NCBI GenBank assembly: GCA_015484595.1
Contig: WFMM01000095.1
Span: forward strand, 1 to 48,795
DNA from: Nitrospirota bacterium
GTDB taxonomy: Bacteria > Nitrospirota > Thermodesulfovibrionia > Thermodesulfovibrionales > JdFR-85
DNA length: 48,795 nucleotides
Reading direction: 5' to 3'
Shown: positions 3,342-20,215 of the stretch, piece after piece
Numbering within the stretch: the first letter of the stretch is position 1
Layout: each line of letters opens with the position of its first letter
Notes under the pieces: generated by a model
The model's input: the letters and a program-made list of their open reading frames with translations, nothing else
Told to the model about the DNA's origin: nothing
Database searches by the model: none
Position numbers and translations under genes: made by a program

Positions 3342-4169
3342 TTAGAGTTCTGAAAGGATGGATGACATCTGTGAGAGGTCTTCCGTTGACTGCTCTCTGA
3401 TGTTTGATAGTTTTTCCTCTGTCAGGTCAAGCTCAAGCATTATTGCGTCGTGCTCCTCTGTCCAGTAACCATCGTCTTCAAACTTGGGAAAGAAGTTTCT
3501 TGACAGTGCCTCTGCAAAGGATACCACTGCCACCACTTTCTTATAACTGTCTGCCTTTGAAGGGGTGTGGTGATACCTCACTGCATAAATCAGGGGCTCA
3601 GGCAGGAAGGCCCTTTTTAAAAACTCAGCCCCGATGGAAGGGTGATGTATTCCGAAATAGTCTAACTCCTGAATAATCAGGTCATCCGAGTCAATAATCT
3701 GGAGATATCTGTCCCTGTCTATGGTGAGAAGCACTACCCTGCCGATGTCGTGAAGAAGCCCTGCAACGAATACCTCAGATGCCTCCACATCGGCTACATG
3801 TTCGGATATCTTTGAGCCAATAACTGCCACCTCGTTTGAGTGTTTCCAGAGGTTGTTGACCGACTTTCTGCTGTGTTTACCAAGGAGTTTAAAGATGCTG
3901 GTTCCAAGACAGAGACCCTTTACGAGGTCGTAACCAAGGAGCATGATTGCCTGTTCAATTGACCTTACATTGCCAGGGATACCGAAGTAGGGGGAGTTGG
4001 CAACCCTGAGGATCTTTTCAACAAGGGACTGATCATGTTTGATAACCCTTGCAAGGTCATTAAAGGTGGAGTTTTCGTCTTGCAGCACATCAAGTAGTTC
4101 CCTGAAAATATCAGGTAATGTTGGAAGGTCTTTAATTTTGTTTAGATTTATCTTTGTGCTTGCAGTCAC
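3342..4169 (-). CDS. HDOD domain protein
   Basis: LPTLPDIFRELLDVL...VANSPYFGIPGNVRSIEQAIMLLG...GLLHDIGRVVL. Confidence 0.88.
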   Translation of the reverse strand: MTASTKINLNKIKDLPTLPDIFRELLDVLQDENSTFNDLARVIKHDQSLVEKILRVANSPYFGIPGNVRSIEQAIMLLGYDLVKGLCLGTSIFKLLGKHSRKSVNNLWKHSNEVAVIGSKISEHVADVEASEVFVAGLLHDIGRVVLLTIDRDRYLQIIDSDDLIIQELDYFGIHHPSIGAEFLKRAFLPEPLIYAVRYHHTPSKADSYKKVVAVVSFAEALSRNFFPKFEDDGYWTEEHDAIMLELDLTEEKLSNIREQSTEDLSQMSSILSEL

Positions 4170-4648
4170 TGATAATTCCTTTCTGTTTCAGGCCTTAGCA
4201 GTTCTTCGCAGTTTAGTATGATAACAGTTTTGTCTTTAAGGTTACCCAGGCCCTCTATAAACCTGCTGTTTTTACCGTTTTTTATGTCCGGTTTTGGCTC
4301 GATCATTTCACCTGGGATGTCAACGACCTTTGACAGACTATCCACTATTAAACCTGCTGTAGAATCACTGCTTTCAACCACGATGATAAGACCTTCTTTC
4401 CTCTGTCCGTCGTCTTCGAGAAAAAACCTCTTTTTCATGTTTATTATGGGAACTATCCTTCCTCTTAGGTTTGTAACCCCCTCAATGTATTCAGCACAGT
4501 TGGGTACAGGGGTGATGTCATAGTGTTTGATTATTTCCAACACATTTCTGATGTCAATACCGTAAAGTTCTGGGCCGATAAAGAAAGTTACAGTCTGTAC
4601 TGACTCACGGGATTGCTTTTTCTGATTATCAAATACTGTTGTTTCCAT
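4166..4648 (-). CDS. cheW: chemotaxis protein CheW
   Basis: FFIGPELYGIDIRNVLEIIKHYDITPVPN...GVTNLRGRIVPIINMKKRF. Confidence 0.92.
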   Translation of the reverse strand: METTVFDNQKKQSRESVQTVTFFIGPELYGIDIRNVLEIIKHYDITPVPNCAEYIEGVTNLRGRIVPIINMKKRFFLEDDGQRKEGLIIVVESSDSTAGLIVDSLSKVVDIPGEMIEPKPDIKNGKNSRFIEGLGNLKDKTVIILNCEELLRPETERNYQ

Positions 4649-4785: not shown

Positions 4786-5853
4786 TTAGACAGAGTTTAT
4801 AATCTCATAGGCAATCTCTGTTAAAGGAACAATCCTGTCGGCAAGCCCTGCTTCAACAATTGCCTTTGGCATGCCGTAGATCGTGCAGCTGTCTTTATCC
4901 TGTACAATTGATCTGCCGCCTCCTGCTTTGATCCTCTTAACACCCTGCAGGCCATCGTGTCCCATTCCGGTAAGTATCACTGCAAGGGTGGTTGATGGAA
5001 AGATCTTTGAAGCAGAGATTAATAGCATGTCAACCGATGGTTTATAGATTGCCTTTGCTGCCTCTTCAACCAATTTAATTTTTATGTTTTGTTTTGAGTT
5101 TCCAGTAACTATCATGTGCTTGCCACCTGGGGCTATGAGCACCTTGCCTGGTATTACAAGTTCACCGTCTTCTGCCTCTTTAACCTGAAGCACTGAGAGT
5201 TCGTTCAATCTTTCTGCAAGCACCTTTGTAAACTTTGGTGGCATGTGCTGGGCTACTACAACCGGAACCGGGAGGTTTTTAGGTAACAGGGGTATGATCT
5301 TTTGTAATGCCCTTGGGCCACCTGTGGAGGAGCCAATAACGATCAGGTCTGTAGTAACTGACTTGCCTTCTACTTCCGTGGAAGTGTATTTAGATTGCAA
5401 AGGTTCAGTCCTTTGTGGTTCTTTTACATTAGAGCCTGAGGCCTGCTTTATTTTGCTAATCAGCTCTTCTTTGATGTTAAGTATGTTGATAGAGCCTTCT
5501 GAGATGTTTTTTGGAATAAAATCCACTGCCCCCAGTTCCAGTGCCTTGAGGGTCTCCACTGCACCCTCTGTGGTATAGGCACTAATCATAACGACCGGCG
5601 TGGGCTGCTTGTCCATGATAAGTCTCAATGCTTCAAGACCATTCATCCTGGGCATCTCCACATCCAGTGTAATCACATCAGGCCTCAGCGAGATGGTTTT
5701 ATCTACTGCTTCAACTCCGTCTCTTGCTGTGCCTATCACCTGCAGGGCAGGGTCAGAGCTTATCATCCTTGAAATGGCACTCCTCATAAAGGCTGAGTCA
5801 TCCACGATGAGGACTCTTATCTTTCCGTTCATTTTAGACATACTGTGCCTCAC
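4786..5853 (-). CDS. cheB: protein-glutamate methylesterase CheB (REC + CheB_methylest)
   Basis: RVLIVDDSAFMRSAISRMI; VIGSSTGGPRALQKIIPLLP; GKVLIAPGGKHM; VILTGMGHDG. Confidence 0.96.
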   Translation of the reverse strand: MRHSMSKMNGKIRVLIVDDSAFMRSAISRMISSDPALQVIGTARDGVEAVDKTISLRPDVITLDVEMPRMNGLEALRLIMDKQPTPVVMISAYTTEGAVETLKALELGAVDFIPKNISEGSINILNIKEELISKIKQASGSNVKEPQRTEPLQSKYTSTEVEGKSVTTDLIVIGSSTGGPRALQKIIPLLPKNLPVPVVVAQHMPPKFTKVLAERLNELSVLQVKEAEDGELVIPGKVLIAPGGKHMIVTGNSKQNIKIKLVEEAAKAIYKPSVDMLLISASKIFPSTTLAVILTGMGHDGLQGVKRIKAGGGRSIVQDKDSCTIYGMPKAIVEAGLADRIVPLTEIAYEIINSV

Positions 5854-7612
5854 CCTGTTTGATGAATTCCATGGCGGCAGGTATGTCTATTATCAATACT
5901 ACTTTTCCTTCGCCTGTAATGGTTGCACCAGCAAAGATGTTTGAGTCGTTGAGGTTGATTATGTTTCCTTCAATTGATTTGATTACCACCTCATCCTGAC
6001 CCACCAGTCTATCCACTGCTATACCGAACCTTCTGTCGTAAGACTGGACGACTACCACATAGTGACTGTCAGCTCCATTTGAATGGTTAAATCCGATAAG
6101 CTCTGACAGTCTGACAATGGGCAGTATCTCACCTCTTAACTTTATTATCTCCTGACCATCTACTGATGAGATTTCAGAGTTATCTATCCTTACGGCTTCA
6201 AGTACAGAGGTGATGGGTATCGCATATACCATATTGTTTACCTCAACCATCAGGGTCTGGATAATCGCAAGTGTTAGTGGAAGCTTAATGGTGAACTTTG
6301 TTCCTCTGCCTTGCTGAGTCAGAGTATCTATAGAACCATTGATTCTTGCAAGATTTGTTTTTACAACATCCATCCCAACCCCTCTTCCTGATACATCGGT
6401 AACTTTGTCTGCCGTTGAAAACCCAGGGTGGAATATAAATTCAGTCAGTTCCCTTTCGCTTAGGAGTTCTGCTTCTTCAGGGCTGACTATGCCTTTTTCC
6501 ACTGCCTTTTTCCTGACCTTCTCAAGGTTTATTCCCCTTCCGTCGTCAAGCACAGATATGACGATGTTGTTTCCTTCCTGTGATGCAGACAGTATTATCT
6601 TTCCTGTCGTGGGTTTATTGAGTTTCTTCCTTTCCTCAGGGGGCTCTATCCCATGGTCAATTGCATTTCTTATAAGGTGAACCAGGGGGTCAGCGATGTT
6701 TTCAATCACTGACTTGTCAACCTCTGTTTCTTCACCTCTGATGATTAGCTCAATCTCCTTTCCATGGGAACGGGCAAGGTCTCTTACCATCCTTGGAAAA
6801 CGATTAAATACCTTCTTGACAGGTTGCATCCTTGTTTTCATAACTGCAGTTTGAAGCTCTGTGGATATTAGCTGGAGAAACTCTGCAGCCTCATTGAGGT
6901 TTATAACATCTGGGTCATTAGGGTATTTATCTGCAAGAACATTTGATAGCTTTGTCAAGCGATTTTTCCCTAAAACCAGCTCTCCCACAAGATTAAATAC
7001 TGTGTCAAGTCTCTCTACATCTACCCTTATGGTTTTTTCCACCTGTGGTTTGTCTTTATGCTCCTCTGTGTCCTGCTTCAGGGGAGCCTTCAGGGCTGTG
7101 TCGATTTTCTGATTTGATGACACAACAGAGGCGACTTTCTTATCTTCCCTTTGTGCTTCTGACTCAACTTTAGATTCTGGATCTTCTTTTATTTCATCTT
7201 TTTTAATCGGTTCAGAAATAGGTGTCTGACCTTCTTCGATCTTTTTTAGCTTTGTAAGCAAGCTATCTATATCTTCAGGGGTCTTGTCGTTGTTTTTTAC
7301 CTTGTCAACCAGTATCTTTAATTTATCAACTGACTCTAAAATTACATCTGTTATCTCTGGTGAAGGTGAAAGTAAACCGTCTCTTAGTTTTTTAAGCACA
7401 TTTTCCGATGCATGTGAAAGATCAACTATCTGATTTAGACCTAAAAATCCTGCTGCACCCTTAATGGTATGAACTGCACGGAATATTTCGTTTATCAGGT
7501 CTTTGTTGGACTGGTCCTTTTCAAGCTCAACAAACTTTTCGTCCAGTGCCTCTAAGATCTCCTCTGTTTCTACAATAAAGTCCTGCAGGATTTCATCCAT
7601 CTCAGAAGACAT
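5834..7612 (-). CDS. cheA: chemotaxis histidine kinase CheA
   Basis: Hpt IFRAVHTIKGAAGFLG; VGELVLGKNRL; DPLVHLIRNAIDHGIEPPEER; C-terminal CheW-like domain. Confidence 0.96.
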   Translation of the reverse strand: MSSEMDEILQDFIVETEEILEALDEKFVELEKDQSNKDLINEIFRAVHTIKGAAGFLGLNQIVDLSHASENVLKKLRDGLLSPSPEITDVILESVDKLKILVDKVKNNDKTPEDIDSLLTKLKKIEEGQTPISEPIKKDEIKEDPESKVESEAQREDKKVASVVSSNQKIDTALKAPLKQDTEEHKDKPQVEKTIRVDVERLDTVFNLVGELVLGKNRLTKLSNVLADKYPNDPDVINLNEAAEFLQLISTELQTAVMKTRMQPVKKVFNRFPRMVRDLARSHGKEIELIIRGEETEVDKSVIENIADPLVHLIRNAIDHGIEPPEERKKLNKPTTGKIILSASQEGNNIVISVLDDGRGINLEKVRKKAVEKGIVSPEEAELLSERELTEFIFHPGFSTADKVTDVSGRGVGMDVVKTNLARINGSIDTLTQQGRGTKFTIKLPLTLAIIQTLMVEVNNMVYAIPITSVLEAVRIDNSEISSVDGQEIIKLRGEILPIVRLSELIGFNHSNGADSHYVVVVQSYDRRFGIAVDRLVGQDEVVIKSIEGNIINLNDSNIFAGATITGEGKVVLIIDIPAAMEFIKQGEAQYV

Positions 7613-7625
7613 GACTTTCCTCCCA

Positions 7626-8015
7626 TCAGTTTTTCAGTCTTTCGTATATCTGCTCAATCTTTTGCTTCATGGTCTCAGCTGTAAAGGGCTTGACGATGTA
7701 GTTGTTCACCCCTGCCTTTATTGCCTCTATTACCTTGGATTTTTCAGCCTCTGCAGTGACCATCAAAACAGGGGTTGACTTAAGGTTTGAATCAGCCCTT
7801 ATCTCTTTAAGCATCTCGAGCCCATCCTTAACAGGCATATTCCAGTCAGAGACCACAAAGTCGAATTTATCAGAGCGGAGCTTCTTTAATGCCTCCTCAC
7901 CGTTTTCAGCTTCTTCGATGTTGGTGAATCCGAGTTGCTGAAGCACATTTTTTACTATCTTTCGCATGGTGGCAAAATCGTCAACCACGAGTATCTTAAT
8001 TCCACTGTCAAACAT
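7626..8015 (-). CDS. cheY: CheY response regulator
   Basis: Canonical REC: KILVVDDFATMRKIVKNVL...FVVSDWNMPVKDG...VTAEAE...YIVKPF. Confidence 0.94.
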   Translation of the reverse strand: MFDSGIKILVVDDFATMRKIVKNVLQQLGFTNIEEAENGEEALKKLRSDKFDFVVSDWNMPVKDGLEMLKEIRADSNLKSTPVLMVTAEAEKSKVIEAIKAGVNNYIVKPFTAETMKQKIEQIYERLKN

Positions 8016-8018
8016 GGC

Positions 8019-8396
8019 TCACCTCCCTGTATTAGGAACTTTTAAGATGTTCTTTATGGTCATGTTTACCATTGTCTCGGTAAGAGGCTTTATCAGGAAT
8101 GCGTCTGCCCCTTCCTGTATTGCAACATTTTTCTCTGCTTCATCATCTATGTACGAGGTTATAATCACAGGTGTGTCGGATTGGTAATCCTTTCGGATGG
8201 TTCTTAGGAGCTCAATTCCGTTTAGATAGGGCATATCCAGTGCTGAAACCACTACATCAAAGGGACCTTCCTTTACAAACTTCTCAAGCGCCTCTATGCC
8301 ACCAGTTGCACAGACGACCTGGTGGCCTTTGCCTTTTAGGTAAAGTGATACAATCTCAGCAGTTGTCACATCTTCCTCTGTTACCAAGACCTTCAT
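8019..8396 (-). CDS. CheY-like receiver lacking the phospho-acceptor Asp (pseudo-receiver)
   Basis: REC fold MKVLVTEEDVTTAEIVSLYL...DVVVSALDMPYLNG...FLIKPLT; aligned with cheY VVSDWNMP, the Asp is Ala. Confidence 0.85.
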   Translation of the reverse strand: MKVLVTEEDVTTAEIVSLYLKGKGHQVVCATGGIEALEKFVKEGPFDVVVSALDMPYLNGIELLRTIRKDYQSDTPVIITSYIDDEAEKNVAIQEGADAFLIKPLTETMVNMTIKNILKVPNTGR

Positions 8397-9217
8397 CCTG
8401 TAACCTTCCTGTAAACCACTGTGTGGTCAATCATCAGTGGTTTAAAAAGGGTTGTTACATTGTGCAGACTCTCGGATACGCCTACAAAGAGATAACCTGC
8501 ATCCTTCATGAGGTCATAAAGAACACTCAGGACCTTCTTCTTTGCCTCATCATCAAAATATATAAGCACATTTCTTAAAAACACTATATCCACATTTCTT
8601 ACAAAGCACATCTGTTTTTCGTCTATCAGGTTTATCTGATAGAGCTTTATCATTCTTTTAATATTATCGGAGATTTTGTAGAAATCATTAGACTCGGTAA
8701 AGTATTTTTTCAGTATATGAGATGGAACCTTTCTGATAGAATAGGAGCTGTAGATGCCCCTTCTGGCACTATTAAGGGCAGAATTGCTGATATCTGAAGC
8801 TATGATTTCAACCTTTGAAGGATTAATCTCTCTGTTTTCATTAATGAGTATTGCAATACTGTAGGGCTCTTCGCCTGTGGAGCAGGCGGCTGACCATATT
8901 CGAACCCTTTGCTGTTTTGATAAAAGCTCAGGGATGATCTTGTTTATTAACAGGTTTAATTGTTTGTCCTCTCTGAAAAAGTATGTTTCATTTGTGGTTA
9001 TAGCGTCAAAAAGATAATTCAGTTCTGACTGGTTCTTTCTGTATTTGAGCAGATATAGATAATCCTTAAAGCTGTCAAACTTGTTTTCTCTGAGCCTTTT
9101 CTGGAGGCGGTTTTCGAGTAAATACTTCTTGCTGTCCTGGATGTAGATTCCAGTTTGCTGATATACAAAGTCTCTTAACTCTAAGAAGGTATCCCTGTCA
9201 AGCTCATAGTGTACCAT
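8393..9217 (-). CDS. cheR: chemotaxis protein methyltransferase CheR
   Basis: TTNETYFFREDKQLNLL...IWSAACSTGEEPYSIAI...NVLIYFD. Confidence 0.96.
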   Translation of the reverse strand: MVHYELDRDTFLELRDFVYQQTGIYIQDSKKYLLENRLQKRLRENKFDSFKDYLYLLKYRKNQSELNYLFDAITTNETYFFREDKQLNLLINKIIPELLSKQQRVRIWSAACSTGEEPYSIAILINENREINPSKVEIIASDISNSALNSARRGIYSSYSIRKVPSHILKKYFTESNDFYKISDNIKRMIKLYQINLIDEKQMCFVRNVDIVFLRNVLIYFDDEAKKKVLSVLYDLMKDAGYLFVGVSESLHNVTTLFKPLMIDHTVVYRKVTG

Positions 9218-11048
9218 GTTTCTTCAGAAGGTTTCTTACCCTTTCACTGATTTCCCTGTCGGGATGTTTGTGAAGCTTTAAAAGCTCCTCTTTAAACCTT
9301 TCTACATCTGAGTTAGTAAGTGTCTCTAATGCCTCAAGCACCACTGGTGGGAAGCTATCCATCAGGAGTTTTCGCTTTATCCTTTCAGTCAGTGCCCTGT
9401 TCTTTTTTAGAATCTTAAGGGCATAGTACCTGACCCACTCATCCTGGTCTTCAAGTAAAAGGGCAAGCTCCTTTTTACAGCAGCCTAACCTGTAGGCACT
9501 CATGATAGCCACCCTTCGTATCTCTGCAGAGGGGTCTTTGATGAGCTCCTTTATCCTTGAGACCACTTTATTGCTTTTAAACCTGCCAAGCCTTGTAATG
9601 GCAGTTATCTTTACATCCCAGTCTTCATCATGGGTAAGCTCGAGCACCACATTTACAGAGTCTGAGTACTGGGCAATAAAGAGTTTCGTTGACTGATCTA
9701 TCAAGGGTATCAATTTCATAAACCTTTTTCTGTCTATTACTGAAAGGGTCTTGATGGCTTCCTCAAGCACATCTGAATAGGGCTCACGAGCAAGCATGGA
9801 CTCAATGCTGTCAAAAACCTTTTTAGTCTTGACATTTCGTAGAGCAATCAATGCCTCCTTCCTTACATGACCATCCGGGTCGTTAAGGAGGCTTACGATC
9901 TCCGGAACATTTTTAGAAGGTCCTATCTTCCCCAGTGCCTTCACGGCAGCCCTCCTTATATCCCTTGATTTGTCCCTCAAAAGAGGAATAATGCTTTTTA
10001 CTGCCTCCTTTATCTGAAGTCTTTCACTTAGCTCAATTGCAAGCGAGCGGGCAACAAAGGGAATGTCAGGCTTTTGTATCACTCTACATATCTGTTTTAC
10101 AGGTGCTATCCTTTGTAGAGAACTTAATATGTAATCCCTGAACTCTGTATCATAAGGATTGCCTGGTTCCAAAGAACCGGCAATTAAGAGAAGCTCCTCG
10201 GTAAATGATTTTAACCTTGCATCAGTGATTGCCTTTATAGCCAGGCTGAGATCATTTCTATCAGGGCTTTTGAGCAATTGGGATACAATGTTTTTTAGAC
10301 CTGGTATCCTTTTTGAAAGACCCAGTTTGATGAGCGCCCTTATGGTGTAGTCCCTCTCTACAGGGCTTTCAGTCTCTTTTAAATGCTTTAGCAGACAGGT
10401 CTTTGAATCTCTGGTATCAATTTCACAAAGGGCTTCAATAGTAAGGAGCCTTACCGAAGCAGAGGGGTTTTTCAGTAGGTGAATAATACTTTTTACGGTC
10501 TGAGGGAGTTTTAATATGGAAATTGCCCTCAGGGTAAAGAGGCAAACCCACTCTGCATCGTGAAGGAGCTGGTCTATGTGTTTTAAAAGGATGTCTGCCC
10601 TTTTCAGTCTTGCAAGCACCATAACAGAGGCAGCCCTTACATTTGCTGAAGGGTCATTAAGCAGATTCTCTATGAGGTATATTGAATCCTCAGGAAAGTC
10701 CCTTACTATTTTAAGTCCAAGGAGTCTCATGTAGTGGTCCCTGTCTGTAAGAAGCAGCTTTACAGCGCTGTGGTTTTCGATGTTTTTAAGGATATGAATA
10801 GCAGGGTCTCTTAGTTCTGGCTTCTGCCTTAACAGGGGAAGTAACATAAGGGCCGTGGCTTCACCACCAATCTGTATAAGGGCGTCAATGCTTGCCTCTC
10901 TGACAGCAGGGTTTTTGTCTGAAAGAGACTGGATAAGCGGATAGACAGCCCTTATGTCTTTTGTGCCAAGCTGAAGGGCTGCCCTTTTTCGTTTTAAAGG
11001 GTCACCTGATTGTAGTTCCCTTAGTAGTGTTTTAATGCTCTTGTTCAT
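9204..11048 (-). CDS. HEAT-repeat protein in chemotaxis operon
   Basis: Multiple HEAT/PBS-lyase-like repeats (DIRRAAVKALGKIGPSKNVPEIVSLLNDPDGHVRKEALIAL). Confidence 0.88.
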   Translation of the reverse strand: MNKSIKTLLRELQSGDPLKRKRAALQLGTKDIRAVYPLIQSLSDKNPAVREASIDALIQIGGEATALMLLPLLRQKPELRDPAIHILKNIENHSAVKLLLTDRDHYMRLLGLKIVRDFPEDSIYLIENLLNDPSANVRAASVMVLARLKRADILLKHIDQLLHDAEWVCLFTLRAISILKLPQTVKSIIHLLKNPSASVRLLTIEALCEIDTRDSKTCLLKHLKETESPVERDYTIRALIKLGLSKRIPGLKNIVSQLLKSPDRNDLSLAIKAITDARLKSFTEELLLIAGSLEPGNPYDTEFRDYILSSLQRIAPVKQICRVIQKPDIPFVARSLAIELSERLQIKEAVKSIIPLLRDKSRDIRRAAVKALGKIGPSKNVPEIVSLLNDPDGHVRKEALIALRNVKTKKVFDSIESMLAREPYSDVLEEAIKTLSVIDRKRFMKLIPLIDQSTKLFIAQYSDSVNVVLELTHDEDWDVKITAITRLGRFKSNKVVSRIKELIKDPSAEIRRVAIMSAYRLGCCKKELALLLEDQDEWVRYYALKILKKNRALTERIKRKLLMDSFPPVVLEALETLTNSDVERFKEELLKLHKHPDREISERVRNLLKKHGTL

Positions 11049-18838: not shown

Positions 18839-19224
18839 TTCAGTTTCTTTACCCTTTCTTCAGGACTTATAATCTCCGTAAGCCTCACGCCAAGCTTTTC
18901 GTTTACCACCACAACCTCCCCCTTTGCAATCAGCTTGTTGTTTACCAGTATCTCCATTGGTTCGCCGGCAATCTTGTCAAGCTCAATGACAGAGCCGTGG
19001 CCTAACTTCAATAGATCCTGTATGAGTATCCTTGTCCTTCCAAGCTCAACCGTTATCTCAAGGGGAATGTCAAGCAGAAAGTCTATGTCCCTTGAGGTTT
19101 TTGTTTCTTCGGCATCGCCCTTTAGCTCTGAAAACTTTGCCTCCTCTGGCTCCTTTGACTCATCGCTATTGTGATGACCATCAGTGGCAACCTGTGTGTT
19201 TAATTCCTCAGCCATTTTTTTCAC
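18835..19224 (-). CDS. fliN: flagellar motor switch protein FliN
   Basis: LDIPLEITVELGRTRILIQDLLKLGHGSVIELDKIAGEPMEILVNNKLIAKGEVVVVNEKLGVRLTEI. Confidence 0.95.
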   Translation of the reverse strand: MKKMAEELNTQVATDGHHNSDESKEPEEAKFSELKGDAEETKTSRDIDFLLDIPLEITVELGRTRILIQDLLKLGHGSVIELDKIAGEPMEILVNNKLIAKGEVVVVNEKLGVRLTEIISPEERVKKLK

Positions 19225-20215
19225 TCCTTTCTGAAATATATGTATTAACTGGTCTTGTTATCTTTACAGCCTGACTTCCTCTGTGAAATCCAGGCAAACA
19301 GTAAAACTTCTCTATCCCCTCAACCTTGAGGAGGAATTCATCATTCATTGACTTTCCAAGGGTTATGACATCACCGGTCTGGAGGTTAAGTATGTCACGC
19401 ACCGTAAGCTCTGCCCTGTCTATCTCCACAGATATCTCCACAGGTGCCCTGAGCAGGTTGTTGATGAGCCTCTGCATCCACTGTTTGTCATCACTGGATG
19501 GGTTACTGCCAAGTCCACCTGAGTTTAATTGTTCCTTCAGAGGTTCGATCATTACATTGGGTAGAACGATGTGAAACTTTCCAACAAACTCACCAAACTC
19601 TATGTTAAAGGTGCTTTTTATGACCAGGTCAGAGGAGTTAAGGATGTTTACATAGTTTGGATTTGTTTCACTACCAACAAAGGATGGGTTAATCTCCTGT
19701 ACGGGCTCCCAGGCAGCCCTGTAGTCATTCAGACATATCTCAAGCAGTCTTGCAATCACCCTCTGCTCAAGGGCAGTGAATGGACGGTTTTCGGTTTTTA
19801 TCTCAGATACGCTGCTGTTACCAAAGAAGAACTCAAGGACAGCAAAGACAAGGGGTGCCTCAAAGACCACCAGGGCCTTTCCAGGAAGGGGTTTTAGTTC
19901 GATTATGTTTATGCTTGATGGCACGGGAATAAACTGCATGAACTCTCCGTACTTTACAAACTTCTGACCGTCAGGGGTTATCTTTATAATCTGATTAACA
20001 AGGTTTGAGATGGAGACCTTTTGAATCTTCGAAAACCTCTCGTTTATGCTTTCAAGCCCTGGAAGACTTGCCTGAATTATCTGTGCCTGAGATGTAAGGT
20101 CAAAGGGCTGTATGTCTTCAGAGTGGGGAGCCTCTTCAGGCTCTGTATCCACCTCTCCTTCCTTTACGCCCTGAAGAAGGGCATCCACCTCGTCCTGTGA
20201 TAGGATGTCACCCAT
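19208..20215 (-). CDS. fliM: flagellar motor switch protein FliM
   Basis: MGDILSQDEVDALLQGV; SPOA domain at C-terminus. Confidence 0.95.
   Translation of the reverse strand: MGDILSQDEVDALLQGVKEGEVDTEPEEAPHSEDIQPFDLTSQAQIIQASLPGLESINERFSKIQKVSISNLVNQIIKITPDGQKFVKYGEFMQFIPVPSSINIIELKPLPGKALVVFEAPLVFAVLEFFFGNSSVSEIKTENRPFTALEQRVIARLLEICLNDYRAAWEPVQEINPSFVGSETNPNYVNILNSSDLVIKSTFNIEFGEFVGKFHIVLPNVMIEPLKEQLNSGGLGSNPSSDDKQWMQRLINNLLRAPVEISVEIDRAELTVRDILNLQTGDVITLGKSMNDEFLLKVEGIEKFYCLPGFHRGSQAVKITRPVNTYISERSEKNG

Follow-up and report, generated by a model that had tools for sequence, protein, structure and literature searches.

Phosphate-sink CheYs, of which CheY1 of Sinorhizobium meliloti is an example, are second CheYs that occur beside a motor-acting CheY and that must accept phosphate. 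CheY4 of V. cholerae does not bind FliM (PMC3774744). Receivers that have lost the phospho-acceptor aspartate are likewise a known kind: published rates are about 4% for Asp-less receivers and about 6% for pseudo-receivers (PMC12632262), and Ala makes up 9% of the substitutions at the acceptor position (PMC4395418). In Myxococcus xanthus, the receiver domain of the well-studied protein FrzS carries Ala in place of the acceptor, has an Asp nearby, retains the Lys and an intact (beta-alpha)5 fold, and is linked to a chemosensory motility pathway; it works independently of Asp phosphorylation, by way of its output face (PMC1974792, PMC4395418). CmrT of the Clostridioides difficile CmrRST system is a pseudo-receiver within an otherwise normal two-component operon (PMC12632262). 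The Asp-less receiver described here, from a Nitrospirota bacterium, shares the Ala, the nearby Asp, the Lys, the predicted fold, the chemosensory link and probably the independence of Asp phosphorylation with FrzS, and its operon setting with CmrT. However, FrzS is longer, contains a coiled coil, steers type IV pili and has Ser at DD2 and Gly at the Thr position, whereas the present protein consists of a receiver alone, belongs to a flagellar che operon and has Glu-Glu and Ser at the corresponding sites. Unlike CmrT, which is an OmpR-family regulator, it has no output domain, and unlike the phosphate sinks it cannot accept phosphate at the canonical site, as the acceptor Asp is missing. Within the incomplete coverage of our literature search, we found no Asp-less stand-alone CheY in a flagellar che operon.

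The gene lies in a window of 48,795 nucleotides, the whole stretch of DNA that was analysed (Table 1). Its product matches the Pfam receiver profile Response_reg (PF00072) with an E-value of 2.4e-18 and 66.8 bits, against a curated cut-off of 30.2. As the receiver is recognised and the acceptor Asp is missing, the product is an aspartate-less receiver (ALR), or pseudo-receiver, under a published definition that covers receivers without the acceptor Asp or without other catalytic residues (PMC12632262). The initial annotation had placed a receiver between cheY and cheR in the core chemotaxis operon, which is confirmed by the gene order HEAT-CheR-[CheY2]-CheY-CheA-CheB-CheW-HDOD; this operon comes after the genes for flagellar export and the switch. 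The cheY1 gene begins 3 bases after the pseudo-receiver ORF.

Table 1. Features of the chemotaxis locus and of the pseudo-receiver gene, with positions in the window.
Feature	Positions	Strand	Basis
HEAT-repeat protein, upstream of cheR across the order	9204..11048	(-)	profile match; synteny
CheR methyltransferase; stop overlaps pseudo-receiver start codon (ATGA)	8393..9217	(-)	sequence, profile
CheY2 pseudo-receiver, Asp-less, 125 aa	8019..8396	(-)	PF00072 66.8 bits; synteny; AlphaFold pLDDT 92.8
Glu7-Glu8 at metal-binding Asp12-Asp13 positions	8373..8378	(-)	Asp-Asp in all 85 other same-order orthologues
Ser51, side-chain hydroxyl beside the lost acceptor	8244..8246	(-)	orthologues: Thr or Ser
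Codon 52, GCA = Ala, at phospho-acceptor position (Asp57, E. coli CheY)	8241..8243	(-)	sequence; Asp in 85/85 same-order orthologues
Asp54 at position 59 (D+2)	8235..8237	(-)	Asn in all 85 other same-order orthologues
Ser81-Tyr82-Ile83 in place of Thr-Thr-Glu (T, T+1, T+2)	8148..8156	(-)	orthologue alignment
Lys103 = pocket lysine (Lys109), kept	8088..8090	(-)	orthologue alignment
Leu105 at K+2; residue class reported to favour active conformations (PMC12632262)	8082..8084	(-)	alignment and paper
CheY1, canonical, full catalytic residue set	7626..8015	(-)	profile, alignment
CheA kinase: Hpt, dimerisation, ATPase and CheW domains	5834..7612	(-)	profile
CheB methylesterase	4786..5853	(-)	profile
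CheW	4166..4648	(-)	profile
HDOD-domain protein, downstream of cheW	3342..4169	(-)	profile
FliM, N-terminal LSQDEVDALL motif	19208..20215	(-)	sequence

Residue equivalences were taken from an alignment with the adjacent CheY and E. coli CheY. In this alignment Ala52 corresponds to Asp57, Glu7 and Glu8 to Asp12 and Asp13, Asp54 to Asn59, Ser81 to Thr87, Tyr82 to position 88, Ile83 to Glu89, Phe100 to Tyr106 and Lys103 to Lys109. The Asp-to-Ala change at residue 52 that the initial annotation reported is read directly from the codon, its residue numbers are correct, and the pocket Lys is kept as it had stated. With Ala at the acceptor position, the protein, whose receiver fold is maintained, is predicted, as proposed, to be non-phosphorylatable at the canonical site. 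The description of the acidic pocket as retained holds in so far as the pocket is still acidic, but both Asp are now Glu (DD to EE), which had been overlooked. Of the hallmarks of a canonical CheY, the acceptor Asp and the metal-binding Asp pair are thus missing, and a pocket Thr/Ser with Lys is present as Ser81 and Lys103. In E. coli numbering the active-site changes are D12E, D13E, D57A, N59D, D64N, T87S, T88Y and E89I; as read from the alignment, the loss affects much of the CheY2 active site, beyond the single acceptor residue. The Ala52 change is known from one draft genome assembly. As more than 12 otherwise conserved positions are altered together with the Asp, a point sequencing error is unlikely.

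Orthologues were collected by using CheR as query in 177 genomes of the order and retrieving the matching loci. Nearly all of the 88 genomes compared within the order have the arrangement HEAT-CheR-CheY2-CheY1-CheA, and so do 15 genomes outside it. This conserved slot between cheR and cheY1 identifies the pseudo-receiver as the orthologue of the second CheY (CheY2). In a receiver tree that included the genome's own receivers, it nests within the CheY2 clade (SH-aLRT 97-99). A grouping with its own family is compatible with the data (p-AU 0.515), and the long branch blurs its exact placement inside the clade. The canonical CheY2 orthologues share its locus, gene order, length, helices, structural Gly and Pro residues and pocket Lys, but they differ at the active site: the 85 other same-order sequences aligned in full have the acceptor Asp, Asp12, Asp13 and Asn59 without exception (the same-order table has 87 rows, namely these 85, the pseudo-receiver and genome G097, in which CheY2 is absent). 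The acceptor Asp is also present in 16 of 16 further CheY2 loci, of which 15 come from outside the order and one lies within it, on a separate contig. As all 101 other orthologues examined have the Asp, its loss is specific to one lineage. The change of Asp13 to Glu is unique to the pseudo-receiver among CheY2 orthologues, and the neighbouring CheY1 has its catalytic residues in 82 of 82 cases. Identity to CheY2 orthologues is 34-46%, with none closer than 46% in 396 genomes of the phylum, and no closer Asp-less relatives were found in these 396 genomes or in 17 of the family. The initial annotation had itself named Asp in most orthologues as evidence against its claim. In these alignments, that outcome overturns a conserved "pseudo-CheY" family and leaves the Ala state of the present protein untouched.

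In the relative G097 (L111:2524-3818), CheY1 directly follows cheR, so this bacterium can do without a second CheY, at least in this position. The CheR, FliM and CheA of the operon had no match in the only same-genus genome examined (G001); one contig edge there carries the end of a CheZ gene, and the flagellar genes are either lost or in an assembly gap. An apparent CheR-CheY2 fusion in G190 was considered as a clue to the partner and rejected, as the upstream part of the 388-aa frame is not CheR and CheR occupies a separate frame.

To what extent has the protein departed from its orthologues? Among 37 sites conserved at 90% or more, 18 are lost in the pseudo-receiver, against at most four in any other orthologue. 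The lost sites include D12, D13, D57, N59, M63, D64, T87, T88 and E89, and G29, A36, G39, M60, P61, G65, P82, G102, K109 and P110 are among those retained. The losses are concentrated in the active site, at 11 of 15 conserved positions versus 7 of 22 elsewhere (Fisher p 0.015, with the partition of sites drawn after seeing the data). The helices are about as similar to the orthologues as those of sister species, whereas the active-site loops depart strongly, a comparison that is partly inflated because active-site positions were the most conserved from the start and that the Fisher test avoids.

Within its own genome the protein is the only receiver with Ala at the acceptor site: of the 65 receivers covering this site, 62 have Asp and two, both degenerate, have Asn. 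It is also the only one of 66 with Glu at position 13. The genome's share of receivers without Asp is close to the published 4-6% (PMC12632262). Another pseudo-receiver of this genome is found in tandem receivers within a 1131-aa frame (L205; G000 contig C53:47408-48121), where the second receiver is degenerate, with Asn at the acceptor and Pro at DD2.

The remaining phosphorelay looks intact at the sequence level, with the CheA Hpt domain and the catalytic residues of CheY1 and CheZ all present. The motif at the N-terminus of FliM is the CheY-P binding motif. CheZ is encoded elsewhere in the genome as a CheW-CheZ fusion (L230:3947-5161; G000 contig C56; CheW at residues 11-144, CheZ at 233-392), and long CheZ frames of 420-485 aa in family relatives suggest the same architecture. 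We considered a degenerate CheZ as a co-change and rejected it: its low score reflects divergence, and both the QDLTGQ catalytic Asp/Gln motif and the C-terminal CheY-binding helix are present. Neither CheC nor CheX was found in the family as an alternative phosphatase. The HEAT-repeat protein, about 614 aa long, is encoded upstream of cheR in virtually every che operon of the order and also in other classes of the phylum, and no known chemotaxis role was found for it. Its terminal branch is mildly fast (8.2% vs 5-6%), a difference too small to be kept as a hint of partnership.

The initial annotation had suggested a constitutive adaptor, a phosphate-independent binder or a CheA competitor, and the protein may be any of the three. 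On balance, we favour the reading that a canonical CheY2 became an Asp-less pseudo-receiver in one lineage and probably still docks to its old partner as a phosphorylation-independent adaptor. The ancestor would have been a canonical second CheY, possibly a phosphate sink, whose active site was taken apart without loss of the receiver fold or the helical faces. CheA would then no longer phosphorylate it, and it would drain no phosphoryl groups. It would most likely occupy the old CheY2 docking site, on the HEAT protein, CheR, the CheA P1 domain or the array, as an adaptor in one fixed conformation, and the possible phosphate sink would be removed. Phospho-signalling for run-reverse behaviour would be carried by CheY1 and the CheW-CheZ fusion alone. 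It is solely from the retained helices, which favour partner binding, that we infer the adaptor role. A bulky T+1 residue and Leu at K+2 are among published pseudo-receiver trends (PMC12632262), and Tyr at T+1 together with Leu at K+2 would be consistent with a protein that cannot be phosphorylated and leans towards an active-like state. As canonical orthologues have V, A or T at K+2, an activating residue at this position is not itself new. More tentatively, the conversion may have taken place within the core flagellar che operon, yielding a constitutive phosphate-independent adaptor and leaving the rewired pathway with one phospho-accepting CheY instead of two.

A competitor or brake that binds CheA (P1 or the kinase core) or CheZ, takes no phosphate itself and thereby restricts transfer to CheY1 would be compatible with the shared operon, the tight translational coupling with cheR and the retained helical surfaces, and a similar proposal has been published for CmrT (PMC12632262). 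However, a profile search detected no P2 docking domain in CheA, so binding to CheA may be weak for a receiver that lacks a functional pocket, and the strong differences around the pocket affect the face that meets the CheA phospho-histidine. We regard such a role as rather unlikely.

The pseudo-receiver has evolved fast: on a fixed tree of 57 genomes its terminal branch takes up 13.9% of the CheY2 tree, compared with 4.1% for CheY1, 4.4% for CheR and 3.9% for CheA. Together with the absence of CheY2 from G097 and the overlap of its start with the cheR stop, this would suit a relic whose function is lost and whose ORF persists through that overlap and the closely following cheY1. Yet when five sister genes were evolved neutrally to equal divergence, a frame free of stops survived in just 50 of the 2000 runs, and the receiver profile in none (74 bits for the real protein vs a simulated maximum of 42.7 bits). 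AlphaFold, given an alignment of the window's receivers only, predicts a complete (beta-alpha)5 fold of five alternating strands and helices (pLDDT 92.8) that resembles CheY structures with a TM of about 0.89, and the structural Gly and Pro residues and Lys103 are all retained. This survival of the fold argues against a decaying pseudogene, and by these models the protein is constrained at the level of its fold. We therefore consider a relic improbable.

The E. coli CheY variant D57N can be phosphorylated at Ser56, and in the present protein Ser51, beside the lost Asp, and the new Asp54 flank a pocket in which Lys103 is retained. Phosphorylation at either residue is nevertheless highly improbable, as the change of the metal-binding Asp13 to Glu and the bulky Tyr at T+1 are both unfavourable, and motility was unaffected when the Asp closest to the site in FrzS was mutated (PMC1974792). 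That an unrelated receiver was swapped into the locus, or that the gene is an assembly artefact, is scarcely credible: the low identity to CheY2 orthologues might suggest it, but the best matches in the 396 phylum genomes are the syntenic CheY2 genes, the protein nests in their clade and keeps the CheY2-typical alpha1 residues (TT..SLYLKGKG), its frame is intact and its neighbours fit the family.

How bacterial pseudo-receivers act has been called an open question, and only two of 20 characterised ones are not orphans (PMC12632262). The CheY2 pseudo-receiver sits among the genes of its likely pathway, and about 100 canonical orthologues occupy the same slot, so orthologue swaps could show what the lost phosphorylation changes. 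It is also relevant to what a second CheY does in these operons. If the conversion in place is true, the pseudo-receiver and its orthologues would offer a natural comparison of before and after, from which the origin and the working of pseudo-receivers could be studied.
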